Assembly: GCA_023389545.1 (NCBI GenBank)
Contig: JAEWEI010000265.1
Coordinates: forward strand, 1-16,884
Direction: 5' to 3'
DNA length: 16,884 nt
From: Actinomycetes bacterium
GTDB taxonomy: Bacteria; Actinomycetota; Actinomycetes; Actinomycetales; Cellulomonadaceae
The notes below the pieces were generated by a model. The model saw nothing but the letters and a program-made list of their open reading frames with translations. It was not told where the DNA came from and did no database searches. The stretch's first letter is position 1; every line of letters begins with the position of its first letter. The position numbers and the translations under genes were made by a program. Below, piece by piece: positions 1,195 through 16,884 of the stretch.

Positions 1195-1201
1195 CGCGAC
1201 G

Positions 1202-1233
1202 GGCCGCCACAGCCCGCTGCCTCCGGTGCGGCC
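1202..1233. terminator. Possible weak hairpin between convergent LCP gene and purE
   Basis: The 57-base gap between the two converging genes holds a short inverted repeat, GGCCGC at 1202-1207 and GCGGCC at 1228-1233, extendable by AC/GT with one bulged base. It has no T-tract. In such GC-rich DNA a 6-bp stem can occur by chance, so its role as a shared terminator is only a suggestion from its position. Confidence 0.25.
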
Positions 1234-1251
1234 AGCGCAGTCCGTGGGGAG

Positions 1252-1797: not shown

Positions 1798-1798
1798 C

Positions 1799-2980
1799 TC
1801 AGATCTCCTTCTGGTCCAGGGAATCGCCACGCAGCAGCGCGGCGGCGGCGCGGGCTCGGGCCCGCACATCGGCGAGGTCCTCGCCGGAGACGTTCACGTG
1901 GCCGAGCTTGCGGCCAGGCCGCACGGCCTTGCCGTACAGGTGGACCTTCACGGCCGGGTCGAGCCGGGCCACGGGCGCGAGGCCGTCGGTCAGCTCATCG
2001 AGCGTCGAGCCGAGCACGTTGACCATCACAGTCCACGGCGCGCGGGGCGACGTGTCACCGAGCGGCAGGTCGAGCACCGCCCGCAGGTGCTGCTCGAACT
2101 GGCTGGTCACGGCGCCGTCGATCGTCCAGTGACCTGAGTTGTGCGGGCGCATCGCCAGCTCGTTCACGAGCACGTGCGGGGCCTCGTCGGGCGTGGCGCC
2201 GGGGACCTCGAACAACTCGACGGCCAGGACGCCGGTGACCCCGAGGCCCTCAGCGACACGGACGGCCAACTCCTGTGCCGCGCGGGCGGTCTCAGGATGC
2301 AGTCCGGGAGCGGGCGCGATGACCTCGGCACAGACGCCGCCCTCCTGCACGGACTCGACCACAGGCCAAGTGCGCACCTCGCCAGATGGGGTGCGGGCCA
2401 CGAGCACCGCCAGCTCACGGCTGAACGGGACCATCTCCTCGGCGATAAGCGGGACGCCCGCACCGCTCTGCGACGCCTCAAGCCAGTCGGCAGCCTCGCC
2501 GCTCGACCGCACCACGCGCACGCCCTTGCCGTCATAGCCGCCGCGCACCGTCTTGACCACGGCGGACCCGCCGTTCTGGCCGAGGAACGCGTCCAGGTCC
2601 GCGGCCGTGGCCACTGGCGCCCAGCGCGGGCACGGCACGCTCAGCGCGCCGAGCCGCTCGCGCATGACCCGCTTGTCCTGGGCATGCACCAGGGCGTCGG
2701 GTCCCGGGTGCACGGCGACCCCCCGGGCGACGAGCTTCTCGAGCAGGGCGTTCGGCACGTGTTCATGCTCGAAGGTCAGCACCTGCGCGCCCTCGACGAT
2801 CGCGTCCACGGCAGCCGGGTCTTGTGCGGCGCCCACCGGAGCGTCCACCACCACCTGGGCTGCCGACGACTCCGCGTCCTCGACCAGCACACGCAGACGA
2901 ATCCCGAGCGCGGTCGCCGCCGGCGCCATCATGCGGGCGAGCTGCCCGCCCCCGACCACTGCCACCACTGCTGCTGCCAC
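1799..2980 (-). CDS. purK: N5-carboxyaminoimidazole ribonucleotide synthase (PurK), ATP-grasp
   Basis: PurK uses ATP and bicarbonate to carboxylate AIR to N5-CAIR, the substrate of PurE encoded next. Counting from GTG at 2980 the protein is 393 aa, normal for the family. Visible features: N-terminal nucleotide-fold loop GGGQLARMM (10-18), FEHEHV (70-75), the ATP-grasp glycine loop RGGYDGKGV (about 146-154), the acidic pair EE (181-182), the metal/ATP site [14 protein letters not shown] (273-286), and the C-terminal KLGHVNV (358-364). The frame runs up to an ATG at 3097, but those extra 39 residues are unlike PurK and would overlap the gtrA promoter. GTG at 2980 places the start directly before the Rossmann strand and 8 bases after a TAGGCT -10 box, so the mRNA is probably leaderless. 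GTG at 2968 is a possible alternative. Divergent from gtrA. Confidence 0.95.
1805..1810 (-). promoter_or_regulatory. Shine-Dalgarno of purE inside the purK 3' end
   Basis: AAGGAG on the minus strand lies 7 bases before the purE ATG at 1797, and it also encodes the last Lys-Glu codons of PurK. It fixes the purE start over the longer frame and suggests that purE can be translated by direct initiation as well as by coupling. Confidence 0.8.
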
Positions 2981-2988
2981 GACGCCCG

Positions 2989-2994
2989 AGCCTA
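2989..2994 (-). promoter_or_regulatory. Predicted -10 box of the purK-purE operon (leaderless)
   Basis: TAGGCT on the minus strand ends 8 bases before the GTG at 2980, with no Shine-Dalgarno between. Transcription would begin at or within a couple of bases of the start codon. No good -35 is visible at 16-19 bases upstream, as is common for actinobacterial promoters of this class. Confidence 0.5.
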
Positions 2995-3096
2995 GTCGAG
3001 GCCACCGCCGTGTCTGGCGCGCGTCCACAGGCGCCGGACGCCCGGAATCGGAGAAATCGGGTCCTGAGTTCGCCAGCGCCACACCGGCGCCAGGCA

Positions 3097-3102
3097 TAAG
3101 GT
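3097..3102 (+). promoter_or_regulatory. Predicted -10 box of gtrA (leaderless)
   Basis: TAAGGT is followed by exactly six bases and then the GTG at 3109, the same TANNNT-N6-start geometry seen before two other genes in this window. There is no Shine-Dalgarno in the gap and no clear -35. About 100 bases separate it from the opposing purK -10, leaving a compact divergent promoter region. Confidence 0.5.
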
Positions 3103-3108
3103 CGGTCA

Positions 3109-3657
3109 GTGCCTGCCTCCGCCGCCGACGCTCACCGCATGCGTGCCATGCGCTCTCGGCTCCTCGAGCTCTCCAGGTTCCTCTCCGTCGGAGCCGTCGC
3201 CTTCGTGGTCGACCTCGGGCTGTTCAACGTGCTGCGGTTCGGCCCCGGCAGGCTGCTCGAGGACAAGCCGCTGACGGCCAAGATCATCTCGGTGGGGGTG
3301 GCGACCCTCGTCTCGTGGCTCGGGAACCGCCACTGGACCTTCTCGCAGCACCGCACCACGCACCGCGGGCGCGAGCTGACGCTGTACGCGGCGATCAACG
3401 TGCTCGGGGTGCTCATCGGCATCGGAACGCTTGCGTTCACGCACTATGTGCTGAACCTGCGCACCCCTCTGGAGGACAACATCTCCACCGTGCTGGGCAT
3501 CGTGCTCGGCACCATCGTGCGTTACATCGGCTACAAGAAGCTGGTCTTCACGTCCCCTGCCCCGGCCGGTGAGGTGCGGGCTCCGGCGCCCGACGTGCAG
3601 GGCGCCCCGCGTCCGGCCGTCGGGCTCGGCGACGGGGATGTCGAGCCTCAGGCCTGA
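3109..3657 (+). CDS. GtrA-family membrane protein
   Basis: GtrA proteins are small four-helix membrane proteins thought to flip or present polyprenyl-phosphate-linked sugars during modification of surface polysaccharides; in actinobacteria they include proteins tied to arabinogalactan assembly. The 182-aa product has four hydrophobic segments, about 24-43, 58-76, 93-112 and 125-142. It carries the family motifs SWLGNRHWTF (about 69-78) after the second helix and RYIGYKKLVF (about 139-148) at the end of the fourth, then a Pro/Ala-rich cytoplasmic tail of roughly 30 residues. The GTG start is placed by the -10 box six bases upstream. A later ATG (Met11 or Met14) would still keep all four helices. 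It is divergent from purK and convergent with the sensor kinase gene, with only 7 bases between their stop codons. The lipid-sugar substrate cannot be told. Confidence 0.9.
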   Translation: MPASAADAHRMRAMRSRLLELSRFLSVGAVAFVVDLGLFNVLRFGPGRLLEDKPLTAKIISVGVATLVSWLGNRHWTFSQHRTTHRGRELTLYAAINVLGVLIGIGTLAFTHYVLNLRTPLEDNISTVLGIVLGTIVRYIGYKKLVFTSPAPAGEVRAPAPDVQGAPRPAVGLGDGDVEPQA

Positions 3658-3664
3658 GTGCGGC

Positions 3665-4987
3665 TCACCGCCACCTGCGGTCCGTCCTCGGCGAGATCAC
3701 CGACCCGCGCGGCAGCACCACGTCGGGGGCCAGCGATGCGGGCACCCCGGCGAGGAACAGCGCGAACACGGCGGGCCGCCGCTGGGCGAGCTCGAGCCGC
3801 CCACCGTCGGCTGAGGCGAGGTCGCGGGCGAGCGCGAGGCCGAGCCCGGTGCCGGCGCCTGAGGTGACTTCCCGCTCGAAGATGCGGGGGGCGAGGTCGT
3901 CGGGCACGCCCTCGCCCTCGTCGGCGACCTCGACGACCACGGCGCCTGAGGGTCCGCTGGGCCGGGAGCGCACGGTCGTGGTGCCGCCGCCGTGCTTGAG
4001 GGAGTTCTCCAGCAGGGTCGCGATCACCTGGGCGAGGGCGCCGGGGGTGGCGAGCACCTGCACGGCGGGGTCGATCTCGAAGACGAGGCGTCGACCGGCG
4101 GCGACGTAGGCAGGCTCCCACTCCTCGCGTTGTTGGCGGAGCACATCGGCGAGAACGACGGCTTCGGTGGTGCCGCCTTGGGCTCGACGCGACCGGGCGA
4201 GCAGGTCGTCGACGACCGTGACGAGACGCTCCACCTGTTCGAGGGAGATCCGGGCCTCTTCGCGCACCTCGGGCTCGTGGGCGGCGAGGGCGATCTCCTC
4301 GAGGCGCATCGACAGCGCGGTCAGCGGGGTGCGGAGCTGGTGGGAGGCGTCGGCGCCGAACTGCCGCTCGGCGGCGAGCCGCCCGGCCATGCGGTCGGCG
4401 CTGCGGGCGAGCTCGGCGGCGACGAGGTCGATCTCTTCGACGCCGGAGGGGCGCAGTTGTGGCCGGACCTGCCCGGACCCGAGCTGTTCTGCTGATGCGG
4501 CGAGGTACACGAGGGGCGCGGCGAGGCGGTTGGCCTGCCAGATGGCCATGGCGATGCCGGCGCCGAAGGCCACGACGGCTGCGACGACGACGAGGGCGAT
4601 GACGCGTGCGCTGATCCAGAACACGTCCCACCAGGAGACGTACAGCGCGATGGTGGCGCCGTTGGCGGACTCCGTCTGCACGGAGACGTAGCGGCCCTCG
4701 ATGGCGGGCCCGGCTTGGAACTGGGCGCCGTCGGGCGCGACCACGAAGACGCTGGCCTCGAGGGCGCCCTCGCCGCCGACGGCCACCTCGAGCATCCGCG
4801 CTGTCAGCGGGATGCCCTCCTCGATGCGGAAGTCGACGGAGCGCGAGAGCGCGGCGGCGCGGGCTTCGAGGGCGCCGACCTCGTTCTCCCGGACGAGCTG
4901 CGAAACGATGAACGCGAGGGGGAAGCCGAGCAGCACCACCGCGACGGTGACCGCCGCGATCGTCGACTGGAGGACGCGACGACGCAC
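3665..4987 (-). CDS. HAMP-containing sensor histidine kinase (HisKA/HATPase_c)
   Basis: Membrane sensor kinase that should phosphorylate the regulator encoded just upstream. The protein is 440 aa. It has TM1 about 8-31 and an extracellular sensor of about 90 residues (32-121). TM2 is about 124-150, followed by a HAMP linker to about 205. The H-box ASHQLRTPLTAL has the phospho-acceptor His216. The ATP-binding domain has LLENSLKHG (N-box, Asn328), DEGEGVP (356-362) and GTGLGLAL (379-386). A short Arg/Pro-rich tail follows. It starts with GTG one base after the regulator stop (TGA-C-GTG) and has GAGG 5 bases ahead of it, so translation is coupled. Its 3' end nearly abuts gtrA on the other strand. 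All catalytic boxes are intact. The stimulus is unknown; neighbouring LCP and GtrA genes make an envelope signal reasonable but unproven. Confidence 0.94.
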   Translation of the reverse strand: MRRRVLQSTIAAVTVAVVLLGFPLAFIVSQLVRENEVGALEARAAALSRSVDFRIEEGIPLTARMLEVAVGGEGALEASVFVVAPDGAQFQAGPAIEGRYVSVQTESANGATIALYVSWWDVFWISARVIALVVVAAVVAFGAGIAMAIWQANRLAAPLVYLAASAEQLGSGQVRPQLRPSGVEEIDLVAAELARSADRMAGRLAAERQFGADASHQLRTPLTALSMRLEEIALAAHEPEVREEARISLEQVERLVTVVDDLLARSRRAQGGTTEAVVLADVLRQQREEWEPAYVAAGRRLVFEIDPAVQVLATPGALAQVIATLLENSLKHGGGTTTVRSRPSGPSGAVVVEVADEGEGVPDDLAPRIFEREVTSGAGTGLGLALARDLASADGGRLELAQRRPAVFALFLAGVPASLAPDVVLPRGSVISPRTDRRWR

Positions 4988-4988
4988 G

Positions 4989-5681
4989 TCAGCCTCGGTC
5001 GCCCTCGCCGGTCTCGAACCGGAAGCCCATGCCGCGCACCGTGGTGACGTAGCGCGGGGCGTTGGCGTCGTCGCCGAGTTTGCGGCGCAGCCAGGAGACG
5101 TGCATGTCGAGGGTCTTGGTCGAGCCGGAGGGGTCGGATCCCCACACCTCGCGCATGAGGGTGTCGCGCCCGACGACGGTGCCCGCGGCGCCGACGAGCA
5201 CGCGCAGCAGGTCGAACTCCTTGGCGGTCAGGTGGAGCTCGCGCTCGCCCTGGAAAGCGCGGTGGGCGGCGACGTCGACGCGCACGTTCTGGGCGTGCAG
5301 CTCGTCCTCGTCGGCGACGTCGCCGACGGTGCGGCGCAGCAGCGCCCGGACGCGGGCGAGCAGTTCGGCGAGGCGGAATGGCTTGGTGACGTAGTCGTCG
5401 GCGCCCGCGTCGAGCCCGACGACGAGGTCGACCTCGTCGGCGCGCGCGGTCAGGACGAGCACGGGTGTCGTCAGCCCTTGGTTGCGGATGGCGCGTGCGA
5501 CGTCGAGCCCGTCCATGTCGGGCAGGCCCAGGTCGAGCACGACGAGGTCGGCCTCGCTGGCGTGGTCGATCGCGCCTTGACCGGTTCCTTGCACGTGCAC
5601 GTCATAACCTTCACGCCCGAGGGCCCGCGCCAAAGGCTCGGCAATCGCGGGGTCGTCCTCCGCCAGCAGCACGTGGGTCAT
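4989..5681 (-). CDS. OmpR/PhoB-family DNA-binding response regulator
   Basis: Cytoplasmic transcription factor, partner of the downstream kinase. It is 230 aa, standard length. The receiver domain 1-115 has the acidic pocket Asp9/Asp10, phospho-acceptor Asp50 (VVLDLGLPDMDG), Thr78 and Lys100 (VTKPF). The winged-helix effector domain is about 130-225, with LTAKEFDLLRVL, the recognition-helix region STKTLDMHVSWLRRKL and the wing YVTTVRGMGFRF. First gene of a two-gene operon. ATG at 5681 lies six bases after a TAGCAT -10 box and has no Shine-Dalgarno, so a leaderless message is likely. It diverges from the mannanase gene across 153 bases; whether it regulates that gene cannot be told from sequence. 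Confidence 0.95.
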   Translation of the reverse strand: MTHVLLAEDDPAIAEPLARALGREGYDVHVQGTGQGAIDHASEADLVVLDLGLPDMDGLDVARAIRNQGLTTPVLVLTARADEVDLVVGLDAGADDYVTKPFRLAELLARVRALLRRTVGDVADEDELHAQNVRVDVAAHRAFQGERELHLTAKEFDLLRVLVGAAGTVVGRDTLMREVWGSDPSGSTKTLDMHVSWLRRKLGDDANAPRYVTTVRGMGFRFETGEGDRG

Positions 5682-5687
5682 CGGCCC

Positions 5688-5693
5688 ATGCTA
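5688..5693 (-). promoter_or_regulatory. Predicted -10 box of the OmpR-type regulator-kinase operon (leaderless)
   Basis: TAGCAT on the minus strand, six bases (GGGCCG), then the ATG at 5681. Same TANNNT-N6-start spacing as gtrA and the second kinase gene. No Shine-Dalgarno and no convincing -35. Confidence 0.5.
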
Positions 5694-5759
5694 GGTCATG
5701 CGCGGGTTCACGACTCGGCTCCACGCCGCCGCACTTTGTTCGATGCGCGAAGTTAGGCG

Positions 5760-5765
5760 TTGACT
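5760..5765 (+). promoter_or_regulatory. Possible -35 element for the mannanase gene
   Basis: TTGACT matches five of six bases of a sigma-70-type -35 and lies 69 bases before the ATG at 5835. The sequence 17 bases downstream (TTCGCT at 5783-5788) is a poor -10, so this is tentative. Unlike its leaderless neighbours, the gene has a proper 5' leader and a Shine-Dalgarno (AGGAG, 5824-5828, six bases before the ATG). A 6-bp inverted repeat CCGGGC/GCCCGG (5793-5798, 5811-5816) lies in that leader. Confidence 0.25.
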
Positions 5766-5834
5766 CTCCCGTTATGTCCTGGTTCGCTGTCTCCGGGCGA
5801 CAACGAGGCCGCCCGGTGATCCCAGGAGACGACG

Positions 5835-7784
5835 ATGTCCCGACCACGCCCGCTGGTCGCGACCGCAGCCGCGATCGCGCTCTCGCTCCCCCTCGCCGTC
5901 GCGCTCGCGACGCCTGCGACGGCCCATCGCCCCACCCCCGTGCCCGTCGCGGAGCAGTTCGTCAAGCGCTCCGGCCCACTGCTCACCCTCGCCGGCAAGC
6001 CCTACCGCTTCGCCGGGACCAACAACTACTACCTGGAGTACTCGGCGCCCGCGATGACCGACGCTGTCCTGGAGAACGCCGCAGCCTCGGGCTCCACGGT
6101 GGTGCGCGCCTGGGCGTTCCTCGACGTCCCCAGCGCCGACGACGTCGGCGACAAGGGCGTCTACTTCCAGTACTGGAATGGCGAGCGGCCCGCGTACAAC
6201 GACGGGCCGGACGGCCTGGAGAAGCTCGACTACGTCGTGGCGAAGGCCAAGGCGGAGGGCGTGCGGCTCATCCTCCCGTTGACGAACAACTGGTCGGACT
6301 TCGGCGGCATGGACCAGTACGTCGCATGGGCCGGCGGCACTCACCACTCCGACTTCTACACCGACGCCACGATCCGGCAGTGGTTCAAGGACTGGATCAG
6401 CCACGTCCTCGAGCGCACCAACACGATCACGGGCGTGAAGTACAAGGACGACCCGACGATCATGGCGTGGGAGCTCGCGAACGAGCCGCGCTGCGTGGGC
6501 TCCGGCAGGTTCCCCAAGGACCCCGGCTGCACCATCGACACCCTGACCCCGTGGGTGGCGGAGATGTCCGCGCACATCAAGTCGATCGACCGCAACCACC
6601 TGGTCGGCACTGGCGACGAGGGCTTCCTCAACCTGCCCGACGGGACTGACTGGACCGACAACGGCAACGAGGGCGTCGACTCGCAGGCTTGGGCGGCGCT
6701 GCCCACGATCGACTACCTGAGCTACCACCTCTACCCCGACGGGTGGGGCAAGGACACCGCCTGGGGCACGCAGTGGATCAAGGACCACTCCGCCGCCGCG
6801 CGCGCCGTCGGCAAGCCGGCGATCCTCGGGGAGTTCGGCTCCAAGGACAAGGCCACCCGCAACGCCGTCTACCGGGAGTGGACGGACGCCGTGCGGCTCA
6901 GCGGCGGGGCGGGGGCGCTGTTCTGGATCCTGTCGGACGTGCGCGAGGACGGCACGCTCTACCCCGACTACGACGGTTTCACGGTCTACGCGTCCTCGCC
7001 GGTGTCCCGCACGTTGAAGAACTTCGCGACGACGATGGCCAACCCGCTGCGGTTCACCTTCCCGCCGGTCGCCGACGACGACGTGGCGCAAACCGACTTC
7101 GGCGTGCCCGTCACCCTCAGCCTCACCGCGAACGACATCGCCTACCAGGTGAGGATCGCGCCCAGCACGCTCGACCTCGACCTGTCGACCAGGGGCACGC
7201 AGCACGTCCTCACCACCGCGCAGGGCGAGTTCGCCGTCTCCCGCACCGGCGTGCTGACATACACCCCCGCCGACGGGTTCGCGGGCAAGGCCATCGCGTC
7301 GTATCAGGTCAAGGACCAGCTCGGCCGCGCGTCCGCCACCGCGCGCGTCACGGTGACGGTCAAGCCGTCCGCGACGGCGGCGCAGACGCTCTTCGACTTC
7401 ACGGACGGCGCCCAGGGCTGGACCGGTGACAGCTCCGCTGCCGCCGATGGCTCCGGGCGCCTGGCCATCACCAGCGCCAACTCCTGGTTCGGGGGGCGCC
7501 TCGCCGAGCCCGCCGACCTCAGCTCACGCAGCACACTGCGCTTCGACCTGGTCGCCACCACCGGAACGAGCCCCATCCTCGCGCTCCAGCTCGGCCCCGA
7601 GTGGGCCTGGTGCCAGGCGGCGCCGCTGCCCTGGACCACCTCCCCGGCAACCGGGGCAGACGCTGTGGCGTTCGACCTCACGACCCTCGACGACGCCTGC
7701 GCCGCGCTGCTCGGCGACGTGCGCGCAGTGAACATCTGGTTCAACACCGGCGAGCACCTGATCGACGAGGTGGGCGTCGGCTGA
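5835..7784 (+). CDS. Secreted modular GH5 (subfamily 7-like) endo-beta-1,4-mannanase
   Basis: Extracellular hydrolase expected to cut beta-1,4-mannan, glucomannan or galactomannan. It is 649 aa, with a signal peptide 1-30 (basic start, hydrophobic core, cleavage after ATPATA). The catalytic TIM barrel is about 42-405. It opens with RFAGTNNYYLEY (58-69) and contains VVRAWAF (89-95). The acid/base is Glu217 in ANEP, the nucleophile Glu333 in GEFG. SYHLYPDGWG (296-305) and the strand GALFWILSD (360-368) are also present. Cys220 and Cys232 probably form a loop disulfide. Residues about 411-510 form an Ig/cadherin-like module (NDI, GVLTYTPADGFAG, SYQVKD). Residues about 516-649 form a beta-sandwich module opening LFDFTDGAQGWTG, rich in Trp and with Cys593/Cys622, likely carbohydrate-binding but of unassigned family. 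AGGAG lies six bases before the ATG. It is a single-gene unit ending in a strong terminator. GH5 is firm; mannan as substrate is inferred from overall resemblance to GH5_7. Confidence 0.92.
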   Translation: MSRPRPLVATAAAIALSLPLAVALATPATAHRPTPVPVAEQFVKRSGPLLTLAGKPYRFAGTNNYYLEYSAPAMTDAVLENAAASGSTVVRAWAFLDVPSADDVGDKGVYFQYWNGERPAYNDGPDGLEKLDYVVAKAKAEGVRLILPLTNNWSDFGGMDQYVAWAGGTHHSDFYTDATIRQWFKDWISHVLERTNTITGVKYKDDPTIMAWELANEPRCVGSGRFPKDPGCTIDTLTPWVAEMSAHIKSIDRNHLVGTGDEGFLNLPDGTDWTDNGNEGVDSQAWAALPTIDYLSYHLYPDGWGKDTAWGTQWIKDHSAAARAVGKPAILGEFGSKDKATRNAVYREWTDAVRLSGGAGALFWILSDVREDGTLYPDYDGFTVYASSPVSRTLKNFATTMANPLRFTFPPVADDDVAQTDFGVPVTLSLTANDIAYQVRIAPSTLDLDLSTRGTQHVLTTAQGEFAVSRTGVLTYTPADGFAGKAIASYQVKDQLGRASATARVTVTVKPSATAAQTLFDFTDGAQGWTGDSSAAADGSGRLAITSANSWFGGRLAEPADLSSRSTLRFDLVATTGTSPILALQLGPEWAWCQAAPLPWTTSPATGADAVAFDLTTLDDACAALLGDVRAVNIWFNTGEHLIDEVGVG

Positions 7785-7800
7785 CCGTGTCGCCTCGTCC

Positions 7801-7844
7801 ACCCGGGGGCTGACCCGCGCTCCGGCGCCGGTCAGCCCCCGGGT
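7801..7844 (+). terminator. Strong hairpin terminator after the mannanase gene
   Basis: Perfect 15-bp inverted repeat: ACCCGGGGGCTGACC at 7801-7815 and its exact complement at 7830-7844, with a 14-base GC-rich loop. It begins 16 bases after the stop codon. Only two T's follow, so this is the tract-poor type typical of high-GC actinobacteria. TTGAGC, a possible -35 for the next gene, overlaps its last base. Confidence 0.85.
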
Positions 7845-7869
7845 TGAGCCGGTCCGCAGCCTCGGCGTC

Positions 7870-7875
7870 TAGGCT
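7870..7875 (+). promoter_or_regulatory. Predicted -10 box of the second sensor kinase gene (leaderless)
   Basis: TAGGCT, six bases (CGCCAC), then GTG at 7882. TTGAGC at 7844-7849 could be a -35 but the 20-base spacer is longer than usual. No Shine-Dalgarno precedes the GTG. The hexamer is identical to the purK -10. Confidence 0.55.
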
Positions 7876-7881
7876 CGCCAC

Positions 7882-9240
7882 GTGGGTCTGTGGGAGCGCG
7901 TCAACCGGTGGGAGGTCTCCCACCGGTTCGCCATCGACGCCACCCTGACCGGGCTAGTGATGCTCGGAGCGGTGCCGCTCTCGCGCGACACGGGATCGTC
8001 CGCCGACGTCTACCTGTGGGCCGCCGCGGTGATCGCGCCACTGGCCTGGCGGCGCTCCCGCCCCGTCCCGTCCGCGGTGGCCGTCTATAGCGTCGCCCTG
8101 CTGCACCTGCTCGCCGGGCACTGGCTGATCTTCCCCGCCGACATCGCGGTGCTCGCGGCGCTCTACTCGGTGACGGTGCACGGACCGCGCTGGGCGCACC
8201 GGATGGCCATCACGGGCGCACTGCTGGGCGCCGCGCTCTCGAGCGCCGCACAGCCGTACTACGACCCTGTGTCCGCGGTGGCCGGGACGATCTTCACCGG
8301 CACGATCGCGCTGGCGGTGTGGGCGTTCGGCCTGGTGCGGCGCCAGCGCCGACTGACCATCGACACGCTCGTCGACCGCGCGCACCGCCTCGAGGTGGAG
8401 CGGGACCAGCAGGCACGGCTCGCCACCGCCGCGGAGCGCTCCCGGATCGCCCGTGAGATGCACGACATCGTCGCCCACTCGCTCAGCGTGATCATCGCGC
8501 AGGCCGACGGGGGCCGGTACGCCGCCGAGGCTGACCCCGCGGCCGCCACCCGCTCGCTGGGCACCATCTCCGAGACCGGTCGCGCGGCCCTCGCCGACAT
8601 GCGCCGACTCCTCGGGGTGCTGCGCACCGACTCCGACGACGCCTCAACGAACCGGCCCCGCTCCCCGGGCCTCGTCGACACGCCACGCGCCGCACAGCAG
8701 GCGGCCGACGCCCCGACGACCTCCCCGATGCCCGCGGTGCAGGATCTGGACGCACTGGTGCAGCAGGTCCGCGCCTCCGGCCTGCGGGTCTCCCTCGTGC
8801 GGATGGGCACGCCCCGCACGCTTCCGCCCGGCGCCGGGCTCACGGTCTACCGCATCTGCCAGGAGTCGCTGACGAACGTGCTCAAGCACGCCGGACCCGA
8901 TCCGGCCGTGACGATCGTGGTGCAGTGGCAGCCGTCGGCGATCTCGGTCGAGGTGAGCGACGACGGGCGCGGCGCCGCGGCCGATTCCGACGGGCTGGGC
9001 CAAGGGCTGCTGGGGATGAGCGAGCGCGCAGCCATGTTCGGCGGGACGGTCAGCGTCGGCCCACGTCCAGGCGGCGGGTTCCGCGTCCGCGCGCGCCTGC
9101 CGCTGCCACCGGTCCCGGGCGACCAGGAATCCGCGGACGCGGCGCAGTACCCGGCTCCCGAGCCTTCGCGCCGCGTCGTCGCCGAGCGAGGCGCCGGCGC
9201 CCCCCAGGAGACACCGATGAACGGCTGGCAGAACGCATGA
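7882..9240 (+). CDS. DesK/NarL-type sensor histidine kinase (HisKA_3)
   Basis: Membrane kinase for the LuxR-type regulator that overlaps its 3' end. It is 452 aa. The N-terminal half is mostly membrane, with about four to five hydrophobic segments between 17 and 152 and almost no extracellular loop, so the signal is probably read in or at the membrane. A coiled linker 153-182 leads to the HisKA_3 motif ERSRIAREMHDIVAHSLSV with phospho-acceptor His194. A low-complexity Pro/Ala/Ser linker runs from about 249 to 285. The HATPase follows with QESLTNVLKHAG (327-338), DDGRG (360-364) and GQGLLGMSER (373-382). The last 40 residues are a disordered tail absent from minimal family members. GTG at 7882 is set by the -10 box six bases upstream. 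Context with an FtsX-type ABC exporter suggests envelope-stress or antimicrobial sensing, by analogy with LiaS- and VraS-like systems. Confidence 0.93.
   Translation: MGLWERVNRWEVSHRFAIDATLTGLVMLGAVPLSRDTGSSADVYLWAAAVIAPLAWRRSRPVPSAVAVYSVALLHLLAGHWLIFPADIAVLAALYSVTVHGPRWAHRMAITGALLGAALSSAAQPYYDPVSAVAGTIFTGTIALAVWAFGLVRRQRRLTIDTLVDRAHRLEVERDQQARLATAAERSRIAREMHDIVAHSLSVIIAQADGGRYAAEADPAAATRSLGTISETGRAALADMRRLLGVLRTDSDDASTNRPRSPGLVDTPRAAQQAADAPTTSPMPAVQDLDALVQQVRASGLRVSLVRMGTPRTLPPGAGLTVYRICQESLTNVLKHAGPDPAVTIVVQWQPSAISVEVSDDGRGAAADSDGLGQGLLGMSERAAMFGGTVSVGPRPGGGFRVRARLPLPPVPGDQESADAAQYPAPEPSRRVVAERGAGAPQETPMNGWQNA
9206..9240 (+). promoter_or_regulatory. Shine-Dalgarno plus seven-codon mini-cistron leading into the LuxR-type regulator
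   Basis: Within the last codons of the kinase gene, AGGAG (9206-9210) sits six bases before an ATG at 9217 in the kinase frame. That ATG would give the heptapeptide MNGWQNA and stop at the TGA (9238-9240), which overlaps the regulator's ATG (9237-9239). The regulator ATG itself has no Shine-Dalgarno at the right distance. The layout would let ribosomes enter at 9217 and re-initiate at 9237. This is a reading from spacing only. Confidence 0.4.
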
Positions 9241-9953
9241 ACACACCGATCAGGGTCGCGCTCGTCGACGACCAGCAGCTCGTCCGCGCCGGCTTCCGCA
9301 TGGTGATCGACTCCCAGCCCGACCTCGAGGTGGTGCTCGAGGCGGGTGACGGAGCCCAGGCCGTCCGCGCGCTGACGCCCGGATCGGGGCCCGCCGCGCA
9401 TGGCCGCGTGGACGTCGTGTTGATGGACGTGCGGATGCCCCAGATGGACGGCCTCGCGGCCACGGCGGCCATCACGGCGGCCGGCACCGACGAGGCGCCG
9501 GCGCCGCGCGTCATCGTGCTGACGACCTTCGACCTCGACGAGTACGTCCTCTCGGCGATCCGTGCCGGCGCCAGCGGCTTCCTGCTGAAGGACGCACCGC
9601 CCGAGGAGATGCTCGGGGCCATCCGCACCATCCACCACGGCGACGCGGTCATCGCGCCGTCGAGCACCCGGCGCCTGCTCGAGCACCTGGTGACGGCACT
9701 GCCCGCCGAACGGCTGGCGCAGGAGGACGAGCCGGCCCACGCCGCGCTGTCCGACCTGACCGAGCGCGAGCGCGAGGTCCTGGTGCTGATGGCGCGAGGC
9801 CGGTCCAACACGGAGATCGGCGGGGACCTGTTCGTCGCGGAGGCCACCGTGAAGACCCACGTGGGCCGCATCCTCGCCAAGCTGGGCGTGCGTGACAGGG
9901 TCCAGGCCGTCGTCGCGGCCTACGAGGCCGGCCTGGTCCGTCCGGGGGGCTGA
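9237..9953 (+). CDS. NarL/LuxR-family response regulator
   Basis: Transcription factor paired with the kinase just upstream. It is 238 aa. The receiver domain is about 5-130, with Asp11/Asp12, phospho-acceptor Asp64 (VVLMDVRMPQMDG), Thr96 (VLTTFD) and Lys118 (FLLKDA). The short PGSGPAAHG stretch before the Asp64 strand makes this receiver a little longer than the minimal form. The C-terminal LuxR helix-turn-helix is about 173-232, with LTEREREVLVLMARGRSN, then the recognition helix around EATVKTHVGRILAKLGVRDR. The start overlaps the kinase stop in ATGA, so translation is coupled. The frame is open further upstream but that part lies inside the kinase gene. It probably controls the ABC transporter operon that begins 151 bases downstream. 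Confidence 0.94.
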   Translation: MNTPIRVALVDDQQLVRAGFRMVIDSQPDLEVVLEAGDGAQAVRALTPGSGPAAHGRVDVVLMDVRMPQMDGLAATAAITAAGTDEAPAPRVIVLTTFDLDEYVLSAIRAGASGFLLKDAPPEEMLGAIRTIHHGDAVIAPSSTRRLLEHLVTALPAERLAQEDEPAHAALSDLTEREREVLVLMARGRSNTEIGGDLFVAEATVKTHVGRILAKLGVRDRVQAVVAAYEAGLVRPGG

Positions 9954-10042
9954 CCGCCGACGCCCGCACGGGCTCCCAGTCGCACGGTCGGGCGCTGCCC
10001 CTCCCCCTGTGGGTGGACCCGGATCGCGACCACAGCCCGACG

Positions 10043-10069
10043 CGCTATCCGTCCGGTCATCCGTAGCGT
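10043..10069 (+). promoter_or_regulatory. Candidate promoter/operator of the ABC transporter operon
   Basis: The 151-base gap between regulator and ATPase gene holds little else apart from the near-palindrome GCCCGCACGGGC at 9962-9973. Here a direct repeat ATCCGT (10047-10052 and 10059-10064, 12 bases apart) is flanked by an inverted CGCTA/TAGCG (10043-10047, 10064-10068) and overlaps TAGCGT (10064-10069), a plausible -10 box. Repeats about one helical turn apart suit a LuxR-type dimer. The link to the adjacent regulator is inference. Confidence 0.3.
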
Positions 10070-10094
10070 CGTCCACATCGCCCCCAACGAACTT

Positions 10095-10098
10095 GGAG
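10095..10098 (+). promoter_or_regulatory. Shine-Dalgarno of the ABC ATPase gene
   Basis: GGAG lies six bases before GTG at 10105. It decides the start of the ATPase, whose frame is otherwise open upstream to 9892 inside the preceding gene. Confidence 0.65.
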
Positions 10099-10104
10099 CT
10101 AGTC

Positions 10105-10928
<824 letters not shown>

Positions 10929-10929
<1 letters not shown>

Positions 10930-13586
10930 TGCTGCGACTGACACTGGCCCAGATGCGGCAGAGCATCGGGCGCCTGGCCGCCGGCGCCATCGCCATCGCC
11001 ATCGGCACGGCCTTCGTCGCCGCCACGCTGCTCGCGGGCGCGGTGATCACGCGGACCGGCTACGACTCGCTCACGGCGTCGATGGCGCAGGCCGACCTCG
11101 TCGCCATGTCCGTCGGCCCCGACTCGATCGAGGAGATATCGGCGCTGCCGGACGTGGCCGCCACACAGCCGATGACTGTGGTCGGCGTGGAGCTGCAGCA
11201 CGGGCCGACGCAGATCTGGGCGGGCGTCACGCCCCGGGCCACCGACCCCAGCCTGGAGGTGCAGACGCTCGTCGAGGGCATGCTTCCCGTCGGCGCCGGG
11301 CAGATCGCCCTGCCCACGACGATGGCCGAGCGCCTGAAGGTGGCCATCGGCGACGACCTCGAGGCTCCTTACACCTTGTGGACGGAGGCGGCGCCCACCG
11401 ACGACGCGGCTGCCCCCACGGCTGACGCCACTGTGGCTGCCGAGCTCGAGGCTGCGGAGGCCGACGCCGAGCTCACGGATGGCGCGTGGGAGAACTCGAC
11501 GATGACCCTGCGCGTCGTGGGGCTGCTCGACGACCCGCTCGGCGCGTACACGGAGCAGGGCGGCGCGGGAGTCGTGGACATCGCCGATGCCGAGCGCCTC
11601 TACGGCGGGGGCACCCTGGTGGACAGTTACGAGTCTGTGCTCCTCGCGCTCGTGCCGGGGGCCGACCCCGCCGCCGTCCAGCAATCGGTCAGCGAGCTCA
11701 CCGACATGTCGGTCTTCACCAAGGACGAGGCCGCGGAGTACCTCATCTCCAACTTCGCCGCAGACGGCGAGATCTTCACCAAGTTGGTGCTGGGCTTCGC
11801 CGCCGTGGCGCTCATCGTCGCGGCGCTGGTCATCTCGAACACCTTCCAGGTGCTCGTCGCCCAGCGCACCCGCACCCTCGCGCTGCTGCGCTGCGTCGGG
11901 GCCGGCAAGCGCCAGCTCCGCTCGTCCGTGCTCATCGAGGCCACGCTGCTCGGGGTCGCGGCCTCCCTGGCGGGCATCGTGGGCGGGACGGTGCTCGCGC
12001 AGGTCGCCCTGACGGTGCTGCGCCGCACCGCCGTGGACGCGCCGCTGCCCGCGACGGTGTCGATCACGCCCGCGGTGATCTTGGCCCCGCTGCTGGTGGG
12101 CACCTTGATGACGGTCCTCGCGGCCCTGATGCCAGCACGGGCGGCGACCCGGGTGGCGCCCATCGCGGCCCTGCGTCCCGCTGACGCGCCGGTCATCACC
12201 TCGCGCAGCAGCCGGGTGCGGGTCGTGTTCTCGGCACTGCTCACGGTCGGTGGGGCGCTCGGGCTCGGGCTCGGCGTGCTCGTGGGCGCCAGCGACCCGA
12301 CCATCGGGCTGCTGCTGGGCCTCGCCGGTGGCGCGACCTCATTCGTCGGGGTGCTCGTCGGCGCGGTCTTCTGGGTTCCGAAGGTCGTCTCGGCGACCGG
12401 CCGCCTCCTGGGGCGGACGGGACCGAGCGCCAAGCTCGCCGCGGCGAACACGGTGCGGAACCCGCGCCGCACGGCCGCCACCAGCACCGCGCTGCTCATC
12501 GGGGTGACGCTCGTCGCGATGATGAGCACCGGCGCCGCGAGTGCCCGCACGACGCTCAACACCGCGCTGGACTCCCAGTACCCGGTCGACGTGCTCATCG
12601 CCGCCCCTGATCGGGCGGACGGCGTGGCGGAGGCCCTGCCGTCCGCTGTCGAGCGCAACGTCCGGCAGATCGACGGGGTCGAGACGATGATCCCGGTGCG
12701 GTCGATCACCGCCTCGGTGGGACCGGCGGGGGCCACCACAGCGGTCGACGGCGGTTGGACCGGGCTCCGCGCGATCAACGCCGCCGACGCCGCTCAGGTG
12801 ATGCGCGCCGCGCCATCGGCGGGCGATCTGCGGGATGGCGTCGTGGTCATGAGCGCGAGCACCGCCACGCGCTTCGACGTCACGGACGGCGAGACGGTTC
12901 CCATCGAGCGTGCCAACCTGAGCGGCGCCGACTCGTGGTCGGCCCCGACGGCGCAGCTCGAGGTGGTCGTGGCGGACATCGGCGGCTCAGGGCTCTTGGT
13001 GACGACGTCCACGTTCAGCCAGGTCGTCCCGGAGGACGCCGCGCCGAACGAACTGTGGGTCCGGCTCTCATCCGTTGACGCCGCTGCGGACGCGTTCGCC
13101 CAGATCCAGGACGCGCTGCTCGACCACTCGGTGTCCATCCAGGGCGCCGCCGCCGAGCGGGCGCAGTTCCAGCAGGTCATCGACACGCTCCTCGCGATCG
13201 TGATCGGGCTGCTCGGCGTCGCCGTCGTCATCGCCGTGGTGGGCGTCGCGAACACGCTGTCGCTGTCCGTGCTGGAGCGCAGGCGCGAGTCGGCGACGCT
13301 GCGGGCGATCGGGCTCTCCCGGCGCCAGCTCCGGCTCACGCTCGCGATCGAGGGCCTGCTCATCGCGGGGGTGGGGGCGGTACTCGGCGCCGTGCTCGGG
13401 ATGCTGTACGGATGGGCGGGCTCGGCGACTGTCCTCGGCACCGTCGCCGACGTCTCCCTGGTGGTGCCGTGGCGCGACATGACGCTGGTGGTGCTGGTCG
13501 CGCTGGTCGCGGGACTGCTGGCGTCGGTGCTGCCGGGACGGGCGGCGGCTCGCACGTCGCCGGTGGCGGCGCTCGCGGTCGACTGA
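10929..13586 (+). CDS. Two-domain FtsX-family ABC transporter permease
   Basis: Membrane partner of the preceding ATPase. It is 885 aa, as expected for long permeases with two FtsX repeats and about ten membrane helices. TM1 is about 17-40, followed by an extracellular domain to about 270. The first FtsX domain is about 271-414 with three helices and the cytoplasmic coupling segment [19 protein letters not shown]. Two central helices fall between about 432 and 492. The basic segment [16 protein letters not shown] precedes the next helix, then a second extracellular domain runs to about 745. The second FtsX domain is about 747-885, with the matching segment [19 protein letters not shown] and a final [14 protein letters not shown]. 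Residues about 152-190 are an Ala/Asp/Glu-rich low-complexity insert in the first extracellular domain. ATG at 10929 overlaps the ATPase stop. Such proteins act mechanically on envelope substrates rather than forming a simple channel. Confidence 0.94.
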
Positions 13587-13608
13587 CGCGGCCGTCGACT
13601 CACGCGGC
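13578..13608 (+). repeat. 16-base tandem duplication over the permease stop codon
   Basis: GTCGACTGACGCGGC (13578-13592) is followed one base later by GTCGACTCACGCGGC (13594-13608), identical apart from one base. The first copy contains the TGA stop (13584-13586). In the second copy the change of G to C removes the TGA. It looks like a recent slippage duplication. Confidence 0.7.
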
Positions 13609-13630
13609 TGACGGCTGGGAAGTCGCCACC

Positions 13631-13687
13631 CGACTGGCCGGCCTGTGGAGGGGCGCCTCGTCCCCAGATCCACGGGCCGGCCAGTCG
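13631..13687 (+). terminator. Very long hairpin after the ABC transporter operon
   Basis: Bases 13631-13649 pair with 13669-13687 over 19 positions, all Watson-Crick except one T-G wobble (13644 with 13674). The 19-base loop can itself pair GGGG (13650-13653) with CCCC (13662-13665). It starts 45 bases after the permease stop and ends 32 bases before the next gene. There is no T-tract, so it fits an actinobacterial tract-less terminator, but it is longer than usual and could instead be a leader structure of the downstream gene. Confidence 0.7.
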
Positions 13688-13706
13688 CCGTCATGCGGAG
13701 GCGGGT

Positions 13707-13712
13707 CATCGT
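13707..13712 (+). promoter_or_regulatory. Possible -10-like box before the FHA-FtsK gene
   Basis: CATCGT is followed by six bases and then GTG at 13719. The spacing equals that of the window's leaderless genes, though the first base is C rather than T. A GGAGG at 13697-13701 is too far away (17 bases) to act as Shine-Dalgarno for this GTG. Confidence 0.25.
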
Positions 13713-13718
13713 GCCGGT

Positions 13719-16700
13719 GTGCGCCTCACCCTCCACACCCCGGACCCCGATGGCCAGTCCGGCTGGCACGCCGTGGACGTCGACGCCGACGAGGGCGCCC
13801 CGCTTGGCGCGCTCCGTCCGTACCTGGCGCGGTTCACGGGGCACGCCGGCTGGGCAGGCCCGCAGCGCCTGGCCGTGGGCCCCCAGGCAGTGGACGACGC
13901 GCACCCGTGCGGAAGCCCGCCCCTCGTCGAGGGCGCCGTGCTCAGCCTCGGCCGGGGGCCGCGACCCGCCGACGAGGCGGCGCTGCGGACCACCCACCTC
14001 GCGGTGCTGTCGGGGCCCGACTGCGGGCGCCTTCTCGCGGTGGCGGACGGGATCGTCGTCGGACGCAGGGGCTCCGACGATCGACCGGGCGCCACCGCAG
14101 ACACTGGCGCCGGGGATCCGGCGCGCCATGCCCTGGCGGACCCATTGCTGTCCGCCCGGCACATCGAGCTCTGCCCCCACCGACGCGGCGCGCGGGCACG
14201 GGACCTGGGGTCGGCCAACGGCACGACGCTGCGTCGAGTGCGCGCCTGGCCACGGGTTCGGCCAGCCAGCCGGAGCCGCCAGGTCCGCGGCAGGTGGGTG
14301 CTGCTGCGCCCCGGGGACCGAATCGGCGCAGGAGCCACCGAGCTCGAGTTGCGGGGCCCCGACGGCAGCCGCGCCTCCCGCCCAGCGGCAGGTCGAGCCG
14401 ATGACGCGTCCGCGCCGTCGAGCGGGCCGGTCAGCGCGACGGCCTGGACGTGGGCGGCCCCGACGATCGGGTCAGTGGCCCTCGCCGCCACCACCGGTCA
14501 TCGAGTCCTGCTGCTGACCGCCCTCCTGGGGCCGCTGCTCGCTGTCGGCCACGCGCTCGCCGGACGTCGCCGTCGACAAGCAGCCCCGGCGCGCGCAGAT
14601 GACGCTGCGGGCGGGCAGGGCGCCGGTTCCATGACGGGGCAAGGCGACCATGTCGACAACCCCGCGGACCTTCTGACCGCCACGGTGCGCGCGGGCCACG
14701 CCCCGCTGGCGCCGCGATTCGGCGCCGAGGCCTGTCGTGCCGAGCCGGTCGTCGCGCTGGTCGGGCCACGCGAATGGACCCTCGGCGCCGCCCGGGCCCT
14801 CGTACTCGGCGCAGTCGGCACCCACGGCCGCGCGCGCCTCGACGTCCGCGCGGACCCGGAGCACATCGCTGACTGGTCCTGGACCCGCTGGCTCACCGGC
14901 GCATCCCTCCACGGGGAGGCGGCACCGGAGGCCTCCCCAGCGACCCTCGTGTTGGACGGCCCTGGCTGCATCGCCGCCGCGGCACGCGACGTGCCCTCGG
15001 CCAGCGAGGGCGACCGCCTCCTCCTGCTCGTGCCCACCGCGTCGGCGGCGCCCGCCTGGTGCCGCGCGCTGCTGCATGTGGGCCTCGACGGCGCCCGGCT
15101 CGACACCCCGCTCGGCGAGTGGTCCACGCCCTTGCGCGCCGTGTCCCACGGGTGGGCCGAGCAGCAGGCCAGACGGGTCGCGGGGCTTCGATCGGCTGCG
15201 GGCGCGTCGCGCGCTGCGCGGCCCGGAGCCGCGGGACGTGAGCGGCCGCTCCCCCGCGACATGGCGCTGGGCAGCCTGCCAGGGGTGCCCGGCCCGGGCG
15301 CCGAGCACATCAGGCGCGGGTGGGCAGCGCCGCGCCGCGCAGGACTCGGTGCGGTGATCGGAGTGAGCGGGTCCGGTGCCGTCCGGGTCGATCTTCTGCG
15401 CGACGGGCCACATGCCCTGGTGGCAGGCACGACCGGGGCGGGCAAGTCGGCGCTGCTGCGCACCCTGGTGCTCTCCCTCGCGCTCGCACACCCTCCGGAA
15501 CAGCTGGTGATCGCCCTGGTCGACTACAAAGGCGGCGCGAGCTTCGGGCCGTGTGCCGACCTGCCGCATGTCGTGGGGCAGGTCACCGACCTCGACGGGC
15601 ATCTCGCGCTGCGCGCGCTCACGGGGCTCCGCGCAGAACTCCGGCGCCGTGAGCACGTGCTCGCCGAGGCGGCGTGCGCCGACCTCGCCGAGCTGTGGGC
15701 CCGCCATGTGCCTGGCTCCGGGCCGCCTCCGCCGCCTCGCCTGCTCGTGGTGATCGACGAGTTCCGGGCCCTGGCCGACGAGGCGCCCGACTTCGTCCCG
15801 GGGCTGCTCCGGCTCGCCGCCCAGGGCCGCTCGCTGGGGATGCACCTGGTACTCGCCACCCAACGCCCCGCGGGCGCCGTCACCCCGGACCTCCGCGCCA
15901 ACATCACGCTGCGGATCGCCCTGCGGGTCACCGACACCGCCGAGTCGCTCGACGTCATCGAGGCCCCCGATGCCGCGCATCTGCCCGTCAACCGGCCCGG
16001 CCGTGCGGTGCTGCGCCGGGGGAACGCGCCCGTCGAGCACTTCCAGGTCGCCCAGGCCCGCGGGCCCGGGTCCATGGAGCCCGTGCGACTGGCCGCCCCG
16101 TGGTCCGCCCCCATCTTCTCGCCGGCCACCTGGCCGGGGCGAACGCCGTCGGCCACTGCGTGGTCGCCCCCGCAGGAGCGCAAGGCCCCGGAGCAGGGAC
16201 CGGGAACGCCGGCGATCGGGCCGGCGCCCCTCGCGGAGGAACGGCCCAGGCCGCCGACGCCCAGCGACCCGGCGGCCGCCGACGAGCGCGCCTACGTCGC
16301 GGCAATCCTGGCGGCTGCCCACGGCCACGCGGCGCCGACGGCGCCGTGGCTGCCCGAGCTGCCGCCCACCGTCCTGCTGCGTGACCTGCCTCCCGACGAC
16401 GATCCCTGCCCTCCCGAGGACGATCACTGCCCTCCGGAGGACGATCCCGGCGCCATCCCGCTCGCGTTGGCGGACGTCCCCGAGCGCCAACGCCGCGAGG
16501 TCGTGCGCTGGAAACCCGCCCACGGGCACCTCCTCGTGATCGGCGAGCCGGGCTCCGGCCGCACCGAGGCACTGCGGACCGCGGCGGCAGGGGCGCTCGG
16601 GCTCGGGTGGCAGGTGCACGCCATCGGCTTCGCCACTCCCCCAGTGCCGCCGGCCTGCTTGGGGACCCTCGTCGGCGCCGACGACCCGCGGCGGCTCGCC

Positions 16701-16884
16701 CGGCTGCTGACCCTGCTCGCGGAGCGCCCCCGCACCGCGGACGGCGCCGAGTCGGACCCGGGGCCACGCCAGCTCGTGCTGGTGGACGGCTGGGAGACGG
16801 TCCATGACGCGCTCGACGGGATAGGTCGTGGCGGCGCGGGGCGCCTGCTGACGGACCTGCTGCGCGATGGCCTGGCCCGCGGCG
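13719..16884 (+). CDS. FHA-domain FtsK/SpoIIIE-type membrane ATPase (EssC/EccC-like), 3' end beyond window
   Basis: Reading from GTG at 13719, the frame has no stop to the right edge (1,055 codons, incomplete). Residues 1-90 resemble the N-terminal domain of EssC-like proteins. The FHA domain is about 92-210, with GR (115-116), SARH (145-148) and SANGTT (165-170), the phosphothreonine-binding pattern. Two hydrophobic segments lie between about 246 and 282. The FtsK ATPase core has Walker A GTTGAGKS (570-577), LVDYKGGASF, Walker B VVIDEF (Asp680, Glu681) and ATQRPAG with Gln715. A Pro-rich linker of about 160 residues follows. A second P-loop domain shows GEPGSGRT (942-949), where the invariant Lys is Arg, and VLVDGWE (Asp1023) without the catalytic Glu. 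The order FHA, TM pair and ATPase repeats matches type VII secretion motors. The cargo is unknown and no WXG100 gene is in view. A chromosome-pumping FtsK is unlikely given the FHA domain. Confidence 0.9.
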   Translation, partial: MRLTLHTPDPDGQSGWHAVDVDADEGAPLGALRPYLARFTGHAGWAGPQRLAVGPQAVDDAHPCGSPPLVEGAVLSLGRGPRPADEAALRTTHLAVLSGPDCGRLLAVADGIVVGRRGSDDRPGATADTGAGDPARHALADPLLSARHIELCPHRRGARARDLGSANGTTLRRVRAWPRVRPASRSRQVRGRWVLLRPGDRIGAGATELELRGPDGSRASRPAAGRADDASAPSSGPVSATAWTWAAPTIGSVALAATTGHRVLLLTALLGPLLAVGHALAGRRRRQAAPARADDAAGGQGAGSMTGQGDHVDNPADLLTATVRAGHAPLAPRFGAEACRAEPVVALVGPREWTLGAARALVLGAVGTHGRARLDVRADPEHIADWSWTRWLTGASLHGEAAPEASPATLVLDGPGCIAAAARDVPSASEGDRLLLLVPTASAAPAWCRALLHVGLDGARLDTPLGEWSTPLRAVSHGWAEQQARRVAGLRSAAGASRAARPGAAGRERPLPRDMALGSLPGVPGPGAEHIRRGWAAPRRAGLGAVIGVSGSGAVRVDLLRDGPHALVAGTTGAGKSALLRTLVLSLALAHPPEQLVIALVDYKGGASFGPCADLPHVVGQVTDLDGHLALRALTGLRAELRRREHVLAEAACADLAELWARHVPGSGPPPPPRLLVVIDEFRALADEAPDFVPGLLRLAAQGRSLGMHLVLATQRPAGAVTPDLRANITLRIALRVTDTAESLDVIEAPDAAHLPVNRPGRAVLRRGNAPVEHFQVAQARGPGSMEPVRLAAPWSAPIFSPATWPGRTPSATAWSPPQERKAPEQGPGTPAIGPAPLAEERPRPPTPSDPAAADERAYVAAILAAAHGHAAPTAPWLPELPPTVLLRDLPPDDDPCPPEDDHCPPEDDPGAIPLALADVPERQRREVVRWKPAHGHLLVIGEPGSGRTEALRTAAAGALGLGWQVHAIGFATPPVPPACLGTLVGADDPRRLARLLTLLAERPRTADGAESDPGPRQLVLVDGWETVHDALDGIGRGGAGRLLTDLLRDGLARG
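16389..16451 (+). repeat. Three tandem 21-base units coding an acidic Pro/Cys heptad
   Basis: Three in-frame units of 21 bases (16389-16409, 16410-16430, 16431-16451) encode PPDDDPC, PPEDDHC and PPEDDPG at about residues 891-911 of the FHA-FtsK protein, in the linker just before its second ATPase domain. The units differ by a few bases each. It is a small, probably length-variable spacer repeat; two Cys and a His amid Asp/Glu raise a weak possibility of metal binding. Confidence 0.8.

Follow-up and report, generated by a model that had tools for sequence, protein, structure and literature searches.

A putative type VII secretion ATPase outside any secretion gene cluster and its likely WXG100 partner in an actinobacterial order

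We analysed a stretch of 16,884 nucleotides from an Actinomycetes bacterium of the family Cellulomonadaceae (assembly GCA_023389545.1, contig JAEWEI010000265.1, positions 1 to 16,884, forward strand; hereafter the window). Its right end cuts the gene of a large membrane ATPase, the motor, whose domains follow in the order ubiquitin-like, FHA, two transmembrane helices, degenerate ATPase, intact ATPase 1, and ATPases 2 and 3, an order that is partly predicted. The features of the motor gene, together with the two genes immediately upstream, are as follows.

13719..16884, plus strand: Ubl-FHA-FtsK motor gene, cut by the window edge; 1367 aa at full length in a 99% identical relative
13719..13952, plus strand: predicted ubiquitin-like domain, residues 1-78 (fold prediction)
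13986..14366, plus strand: FHA domain, residues 90-216, with G-R, S-x-x-H and N-G of the phosphothreonine site
14436..14579, plus strand: two predicted transmembrane helices, residues 240-259 and 262-287
14736..15158, plus strand: degenerate ATPase ("DUF") domain, about residues 340-480; tentative match to the EccC DUF domain (one weak sequence match; fold comparisons)
15336..16058, plus strand: ATPase 1, residues 540-780; Walker A (K576) at 15426-15449, Walker B D680-E681 at 15756-15761
16452..16884, plus strand: ATPase 2, first part; Walker A G-x-x-G-S-G-R-T (R948) at 16542-16565, Walker B hhhhDG near 16776-16790
9892..13586, plus strand: upstream neighbours, ABC ATPase and FtsX-like permease (Pfam; synteny covered the permease, not the ABC gene)

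The motor gene, its domains and its ATPases

The plus-strand frame 13719-16883 has a GTG start and stays open for 1055 codons to the window edge. The open reading frame scan also found a minus frame open for 803 codons (14472-16883) in the same DNA, and G+C at the three codon positions was 0.826/0.615/0.878 in the plus frame versus 0.878/0.601/0.831 in the minus frame. Openness proves little here, and codon-position composition barely separates the two frames. A homology search with the plus-frame protein returned P0002, a protein of 1367 residues from another record that is 99% identical across the entire frame, and the FtsK_SpoIIIE profile matched the plus-frame protein with an E value of 1.2e-33. 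It is because of this homology, not openness or composition, that the plus-strand frame is confirmed as a real gene as far as sequence comparison reaches, and the giant open frame with coherent motifs described in an earlier note on this DNA was borne out. The reading as a noise frame was dropped, since a 99% identical protein of 1367 residues exists. P0002 also completes the motor that the window edge cuts, with a third ATPase past the edge whose Walker A motif again carries Arg. Relatives from C. cellasea and C. timonensis were 63% and 68% identical, each over the best segment, and the usual source name of relatives, where they are named, was "FtsK/SpoIIIE domain-containing protein". The motor motifs were retained in an alignment of 121 proteins, consisting of the window protein and the best 120 of 1730 matches.

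In the predicted structure, the fold of residues 1-78 matched ubiquitin, with the ubiquitin row at rank 50 among the best 50 fold-match rows; no YukD chain stood among those 50 rows, which excludes nothing. For the FHA domain, the Pfam score of P0002 was below threshold (17.4 vs 20.7 bits), and P0003, P0008, and P0028 scored above it. Together with the fold prediction, these matches upheld the FHA domain named in the earlier note, and the two transmembrane helices claimed there were likewise predicted. The window FHA domain contains the phosphothreonine-site residues G115-R116, S145, H148, and N167-G168; among the 121 aligned proteins, R116 was found in 60, S145 in 53, H148 in 52, and N167 in 47.

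Comparison with proteins of known structure placed the motor nearest to type VII secretion ATPases. The best sequence matches in the PDB were T. curvata EccC (4nh0, 1e-66), ESX-5 EccC (5e-51), B. subtilis YukB (4e-43), and FtsK (2iuu, 1e-15). Foldseek gave EccC 4nh0 at 5e-21, EssC at 9e-15, and FtsK at 4e-12, and VIA-align scored EccC at 28.9 and 28.4, EssC at 27.8, and FtsK at 26.6, FtsK being near because its ATPase 1 matches well. At full length, P0002 scored below the cut-offs of the EccCa and EccCb models TIGR03924 and TIGR03925 (229.6 of 509.15 and 184.7 of 346.55 bits), which the ESX EccC of C. cellasea (L023), used as a control, cleared with 736 and 622 bits. It also remained below the cut-offs of the EssC model TIGR03928 (242.8 of 778.4 bits) and the FtsK model NF007615 (50.5 of 1566 bits). 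Because EccC is the closest match by both sequence and modelled fold, and because of the two transmembrane helices, the DUF domain with three ATPases, and the intact ATPase 1, the motor is an EccC/EssC-type membrane ATPase in the broad sense; its model scores leave it outside both named families. The earlier note had preferred such a motor to a DNA translocase, and the comparisons agree. An FtsK DNA translocase was rejected on sequence, on Foldseek, and on the NF007615 score, yet VIA-align puts FtsK near EccC for ATPase 1. We searched 47 genomes for WXG100 and motor genes (12 relatives and 39 genomes evenly drawn from the order, 4 of them in both sets); a separate match with E values of 3e-22 to 7e-19 was present in 44 of them (not G025, G039, or G041) and probably represents the housekeeping FtsK.

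The catalytic residues had been named correctly in the earlier note: the window protein has K576 and D680-E681 in ATPase 1 and R948 in ATPase 2, where Walker B reads hhhhD-G without Glu. K576 and D680-E681 were present in all 121 aligned proteins, and in a wider sample of 68 motor frames the Lys and the Asp-Glu of ATPase 1 were found in 66 of the 66 rows with residues there. Five further motor matches lie outside these 68 rows (G004:C17, G005:C1 at about 3.97 Mb, G019:C54, G022:C21 at about 336 kb, and G026:C1 at about 326 kb). The Walker A Lys position was occupied by Arg in 119 of the 121 proteins for ATPase 2 (2 gaps) and in 117 for ATPase 3 (4 gaps). Among 32 rows in which the motor is linked to pdtaS, ATPase 2 had Arg in 24, Lys in 4, Ala in 2, Gln in 1, and a gap in 1; ATPase 3 had Arg in 23, Lys in 2, Val in 1, and a gap in 6, with two of the 23 Arg (G018, G037) lying within broken P-loops. 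The expected pattern of an intact first ATPase with divergent later ones thus held.

P-loops with Lys replaced by Arg tend to bind ATP without hydrolysis, and ATPases 2 and 3 with Arg may be read as ATP-holding platforms. Arg in both later ATPases was considered as a mark of this clade alone and rejected, since motors linked to WXG100 genes also carry Arg in ATPase 2 (a Curtobacterium plasmid, G009:C2, G023, G024, G027, G030, G037, G044, and G047). In the L021 motor group, ATPase 2 mostly has Lys and ATPase 3 Arg. Moreover, in an ATPase 1 tree (FastTree, without support values) the WXG100-linked motors nested inside the pdtaS-linked ones, and the two were not clean sister clades. Degenerate second and third ATPases have already been reported (PMC11154593), and ATPase 3 of EccC is described with a Walker A of GXXXXG[K/R][T/S], hhhhDD, and bound ATP with little turnover (PMC6954902). 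An FHA motor with a crippled ATPase 2 is ordinary for motors of type VII secretion systems (T7SS), in which degenerate later ATPases and the Arg of ATPase 3 are already known. The "crippled" ATPase 2 of the earlier note stood as to its Arg and missing Glu, but it is a family trait that extends the published EccC pattern.

The motor locus and a solitary WXG100 gene

The earlier note had proposed looking to the right for genes of WXG100 proteins, Ecc proteins, a Ser/Thr kinase, or a PP2C phosphatase, and none was found at this locus. Pfam identified none of these among the main window genes and the scanned genes downstream of the C. cellasea motor, and a T7SSd-type cluster (WXG100 and Ser/Thr kinase by the motor) was absent from the same genes. 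For C. timonensis, two small downstream frames were scanned with Pfam and the remaining genes matched C. cellasea genes by BLAST. No EccB, EccE, or MycP Pfam name occurred among the scanned neighbours, no genome-wide search having been aimed at these. A secretion cluster just right of the window was accordingly rejected, as it was seen neither in C. cellasea nor in C. timonensis. The earlier note had staked its reading on what lay beyond the edge: the third ATPase exists, but no secretion genes were found nearby. In the order at large, pdtaS lay beside the motor in the fetched stretch of 31 of the 47 genomes (24 of the 39 evenly drawn). Within 25 kb of the motor in the 32 pdtaS-linked rows, where WXG100 alone was tested order-wide, there was one WXG100 match, a weak one at 12 kb in G025.

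Elsewhere in the genomes, WXG100 genes were common, with some match in 11 of the 12 relatives and in 38 of the 39 genomes drawn from across the order. A solitary WXG100 class, like the one of C. timonensis, was found in 43 of 47 genomes (35 of 39 evenly drawn), leaving out weak matches beside ESX motors in G007 and G016. The Y-x-x-x-[DE] motif is a type VII export signal; by pattern search, all 43 solitary proteins had W.G in frame and Y...[DE] within the last 40 residues. All 43 were above the PF06013 cut-off in the genome searches, and three of three scanned proteins scored 65.9-72.2 bits against a cut-off of 27.3. A groEL gene and/or a histidine kinase-response regulator pair lay in the fetched stretch of 39 of the 43, and the other four were on contigs of 4.7 to 12.1 kb. 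No other PF06013 match lay near the WXG100 gene in these 43 genomes; a strongly diverged partner may have escaped the search. A study published in 2014, covering the genomes that were available in November 2009, described all actinobacterial WXG100 genes as bicistronic without exception (PMC3935865).

We compared the occurrence of this WXG100 class with that of the motor clade. The four genomes scored without the solitary WXG100 (G011 with none, G019 with a pair near another motor, G020 and G038 with weak matches only) also had no motor of this clade. Both genes were present in 36 of the 47 genomes, the motor only in 0, the WXG100 only in 7, and neither in 4 (Fisher p 0.0019), counting with the clade five motors without visible pdtaS (G008, G015, G024, G031, and G034). 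Alternative tables gave 31/0/12/4 (p 0.010), 38/0/5/4 with G030 and G047 added (p 0.0007), and 36/0/3/4 after dropping G021, G023, G039, and G041 (p 0.0003).

In sixteen genomes the searches gave exactly one non-FtsK motor and a single WXG100 match, the two being on different contigs or separated by 167 kb or more (G002, G006, G010, G012, G013, G015, G028, G029, G031, G034, G035, G036, G042, G043, G045, and G046). Except for G015, G031, and G034, the motor of each was visibly beside pdtaS (13/16). G039, also with one motor and one WXG100, was excluded because its motor belongs to another group and is cut by a contig end. The YukD/EccD domain (PF08817) was found in none of the 16, and all six genomes chosen for ESX motors were positive. 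Three of the 16 (G012, G029, and G046) had reduced motor frames of 622-661 codons, in which two hydrophobic segments and ATPase 1 remain, along with an additional ATPase-like domain that has a Walker A Lys. For comparison, removal of the third ATPase domain abolishes secretion in S. aureus EssC (PMC4925161). The orphan motor was interrupted in C. timonensis (L002 9899-14082, frames of 854 and 1138 codons) and also in G006:C2 and G009:C12, by decay or assembly error.

A split minimal system and its alternatives

Taken together, we think it fairly probable that the motor is a type VII secretion ATPase of the core genome, located away from any secretion gene cluster, and that it belongs, with the unlinked WXG100 protein, to a split minimal type VII system. 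The partnership of motor and WXG100 is suggested by their distribution. Whether a whole actinobacterial order keeps this core split system, with a self-contained motor at pdtaS, a solitary WXG100 near groEL, no EccD-type partner, and in some small genomes a motor shortened to about 620-660 codons, we regard as evenly balanced.

In the mechanism that we propose, the motor would form a hexamer and export the single WXG100 protein as a homodimer. The gene of this protein would lie elsewhere, as it does in relatives, where it is close to groEL and/or a histidine kinase-response regulator pair. The C-terminal Y-x-x-x-[DE] tail of the WXG100 protein would dock on the divergent ATPases 2 and 3, which may hold ATP without turning it over, and docking would relieve an inhibition of ATPase 1. 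The fused ubiquitin-like domain could replace a separate YukD/EsaB protein or EccD domain, and the FHA domain may recruit a Thr-phosphorylated protein as an on/off switch. By analogy, kinase control through FHA is plausible for the wider group, because clusters of a Ser/Thr kinase with a related motor occur in three genomes (G009, G014, and G017), and these clusters, together with T7SSd and T7SSe (PMC11217815), support the FHA step.

Several observations weigh against this split system and favour the alternative that the motor exports a substrate of its own, the solitary WXG100 protein serving other motors or acting inside the cell and both being conserved core genes. Both loci are common in the sample, so that their co-occurrence is weak evidence, and shared ancestry makes the Fisher values optimistic. 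Moreover, the solitary WXG100 is present but this motor clade absent in 7 of 47 genomes, and the neighbours of the motor (FtsX/ABC permease, pdtaS) are not type VII genes. However, the 16 single-motor genomes yielded no further EccC-type motor or WXG100 match, and the solitary WXG100 retains export-type motifs; we consider the alternative rather unlikely. The reading of the motor as a remnant of a former T7SS cluster, now decaying and of little function, would fit the interrupted frames of C. timonensis, G006, and G009 and the reduced forms of G012, G029, and G046, but the ATPase 1 residues are retained in 66/66 rows, the position of the motor is conserved, and even the reduced forms keep ATPase 1 together with their two hydrophobic segments and another ATPase-like domain, which makes a relic improbable. 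It is highly improbable that the motor is an FtsK/SpoIIIE/TcpA-like DNA translocase, with a possible role in conjugation or segregation, as EccC/EssC proteins match better by sequence, by fold, and across more domains, and 44/47 genomes have a separate FtsK-type match.

If the split system is real, a known secretion machine of Gram-positive bacteria would have a reduced layout that has so far gone undescribed, with the likely partner of the motor encoded far off. The split system would come near the smallest functional type VII secretion unit and contradict the view that actinobacterial WXG100 genes are always paired. One motor and one WXG100 without YukD or EccD make a natural minimal system, in which the pore former and the role of ATPases 2 and 3 could be addressed with two genes. 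What is of interest is that the arrangement would be split and spread across the order and that the motor carries a predicted ubiquitin-like domain of its own. Among the matches listed in our literature search (titles and abstract openings, outside subscription papers), none described a split motor/WXG100 system or a groEL-linked WXG100. A recent survey of type VII systems started from motor gene neighbourhoods and, being based on these, would be blind to systems with distant parts (PMC11217815).

Related systems and neighbouring genes

The motor shares with EccC of T7SSa (ESX; T. curvata 4nh0/4n1a) the two transmembrane helices, the degenerate DUF ATPase, and three FtsK-like ATPases, the first active and the later ones divergent. 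It differs in its N-terminal ubiquitin-like and FHA domains and in its scores (230 and 185 bits versus cut-offs of 509 and 347), and all 16 single-motor genomes differ from T7SSa in lacking a YukD/EccD domain match. With EssC of T7SSb it shares an N-terminal FHA ahead of two transmembrane helices and three ATPases, and it reaches 243 bits with the EssC model, far under the cut-off of 778. The EssC N-terminus consists of two FHA domains without phosphothreonine-site residues (PMC4925161), whereas this motor has a ubiquitin-like domain and an FHA domain with them.

Among described actinobacterial systems, T7SSd is the nearest relative whose motor has a phosphothreonine-competent FHA domain (PMC11217815). 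The TsxC motors of T7SSd and T7SSe likewise have an FHA with a conserved phosphothreonine site, and actinobacterial T7SSd has a single WXG100 (PMC11217815). T7SSd and T7SSe are gene clusters with WXG100, kinase, and TsdH/TsdI, whereas the present motor and WXG100 are unlinked. The authors of T7SSd found no ubiquitin-like protein (PMC11217815); here a predicted domain of this kind is fused to the motor, and such a fusion, if the split system is true, might likewise account for the component that T7SSd is reported to lack. The comparison with T7SSd is drawn from its published description.

Related motors also occur in kinase-motor clusters of the same order (L053, L083, and L087, in G009, G017, and G014), where a Ser/Thr kinase gene shortly precedes the motor in all three. 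An FHA domain was demonstrated for the L053 motor. These clusters differ from the present locus in the clustered kinase and in an ATPase 2 that retains Lys, and they are possibly a kinase-regulated type VII layout within the order. In L053, the one cluster scanned for WXG100, FHA-domain genes lie upstream and a gene with a sub-threshold WXG100 match downstream. The Curtobacterium plasmid pTCL (L008, 141-150 kb) encodes a WXG100 protein, several hypothetical proteins, and an FtsK-domain motor whose ATPases 2 and 3 both have Arg. C. cellasea carries another three motors of the T7SS type (L021; L022, G001:C33; and L023, G001:C28), of which two lie near WXG100 genes without W-x-G and Y-x-x-x-[DE], and one is of ESX type with a YukD/EccD domain nearby.

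Upstream of the motor, the window encodes in order a GH5 cellulase, a HisKA_3 kinase, a NarL-type regulator, the ABC ATPase, and the FtsX-like permease. The permease gene also stands ahead of the motor in C. cellasea, C. timonensis, and G003-G009. A conserved order, with kinase, regulator, and permease leading up to the motor and PdtaS and DUF2505 following it, was seen, within contig reach, in C. cellasea, C. timonensis, G003-G007, and G009; the G008 contig stops inside the motor. Downstream of the C. cellasea motor are a small multi-transmembrane gene, PdtaS, DUF2505, a sugar transporter, and LacI. The small gene (L001 14009-14425, minus strand) has no Pfam match and had no BLAST match in G005, G008, or G009. 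A frame with at least three hydrophobic segments lay between motor and PdtaS in 24 of 32 rows, a count that is not a homology test, and the small protein is a candidate membrane partner of the motor. The GH5 cellulase gene (window 5835-7784), unmatched in the G004-G007 loci and found at the matching place in C. cellasea and C. timonensis only, carries a Big_9 domain and lies between two two-component systems.

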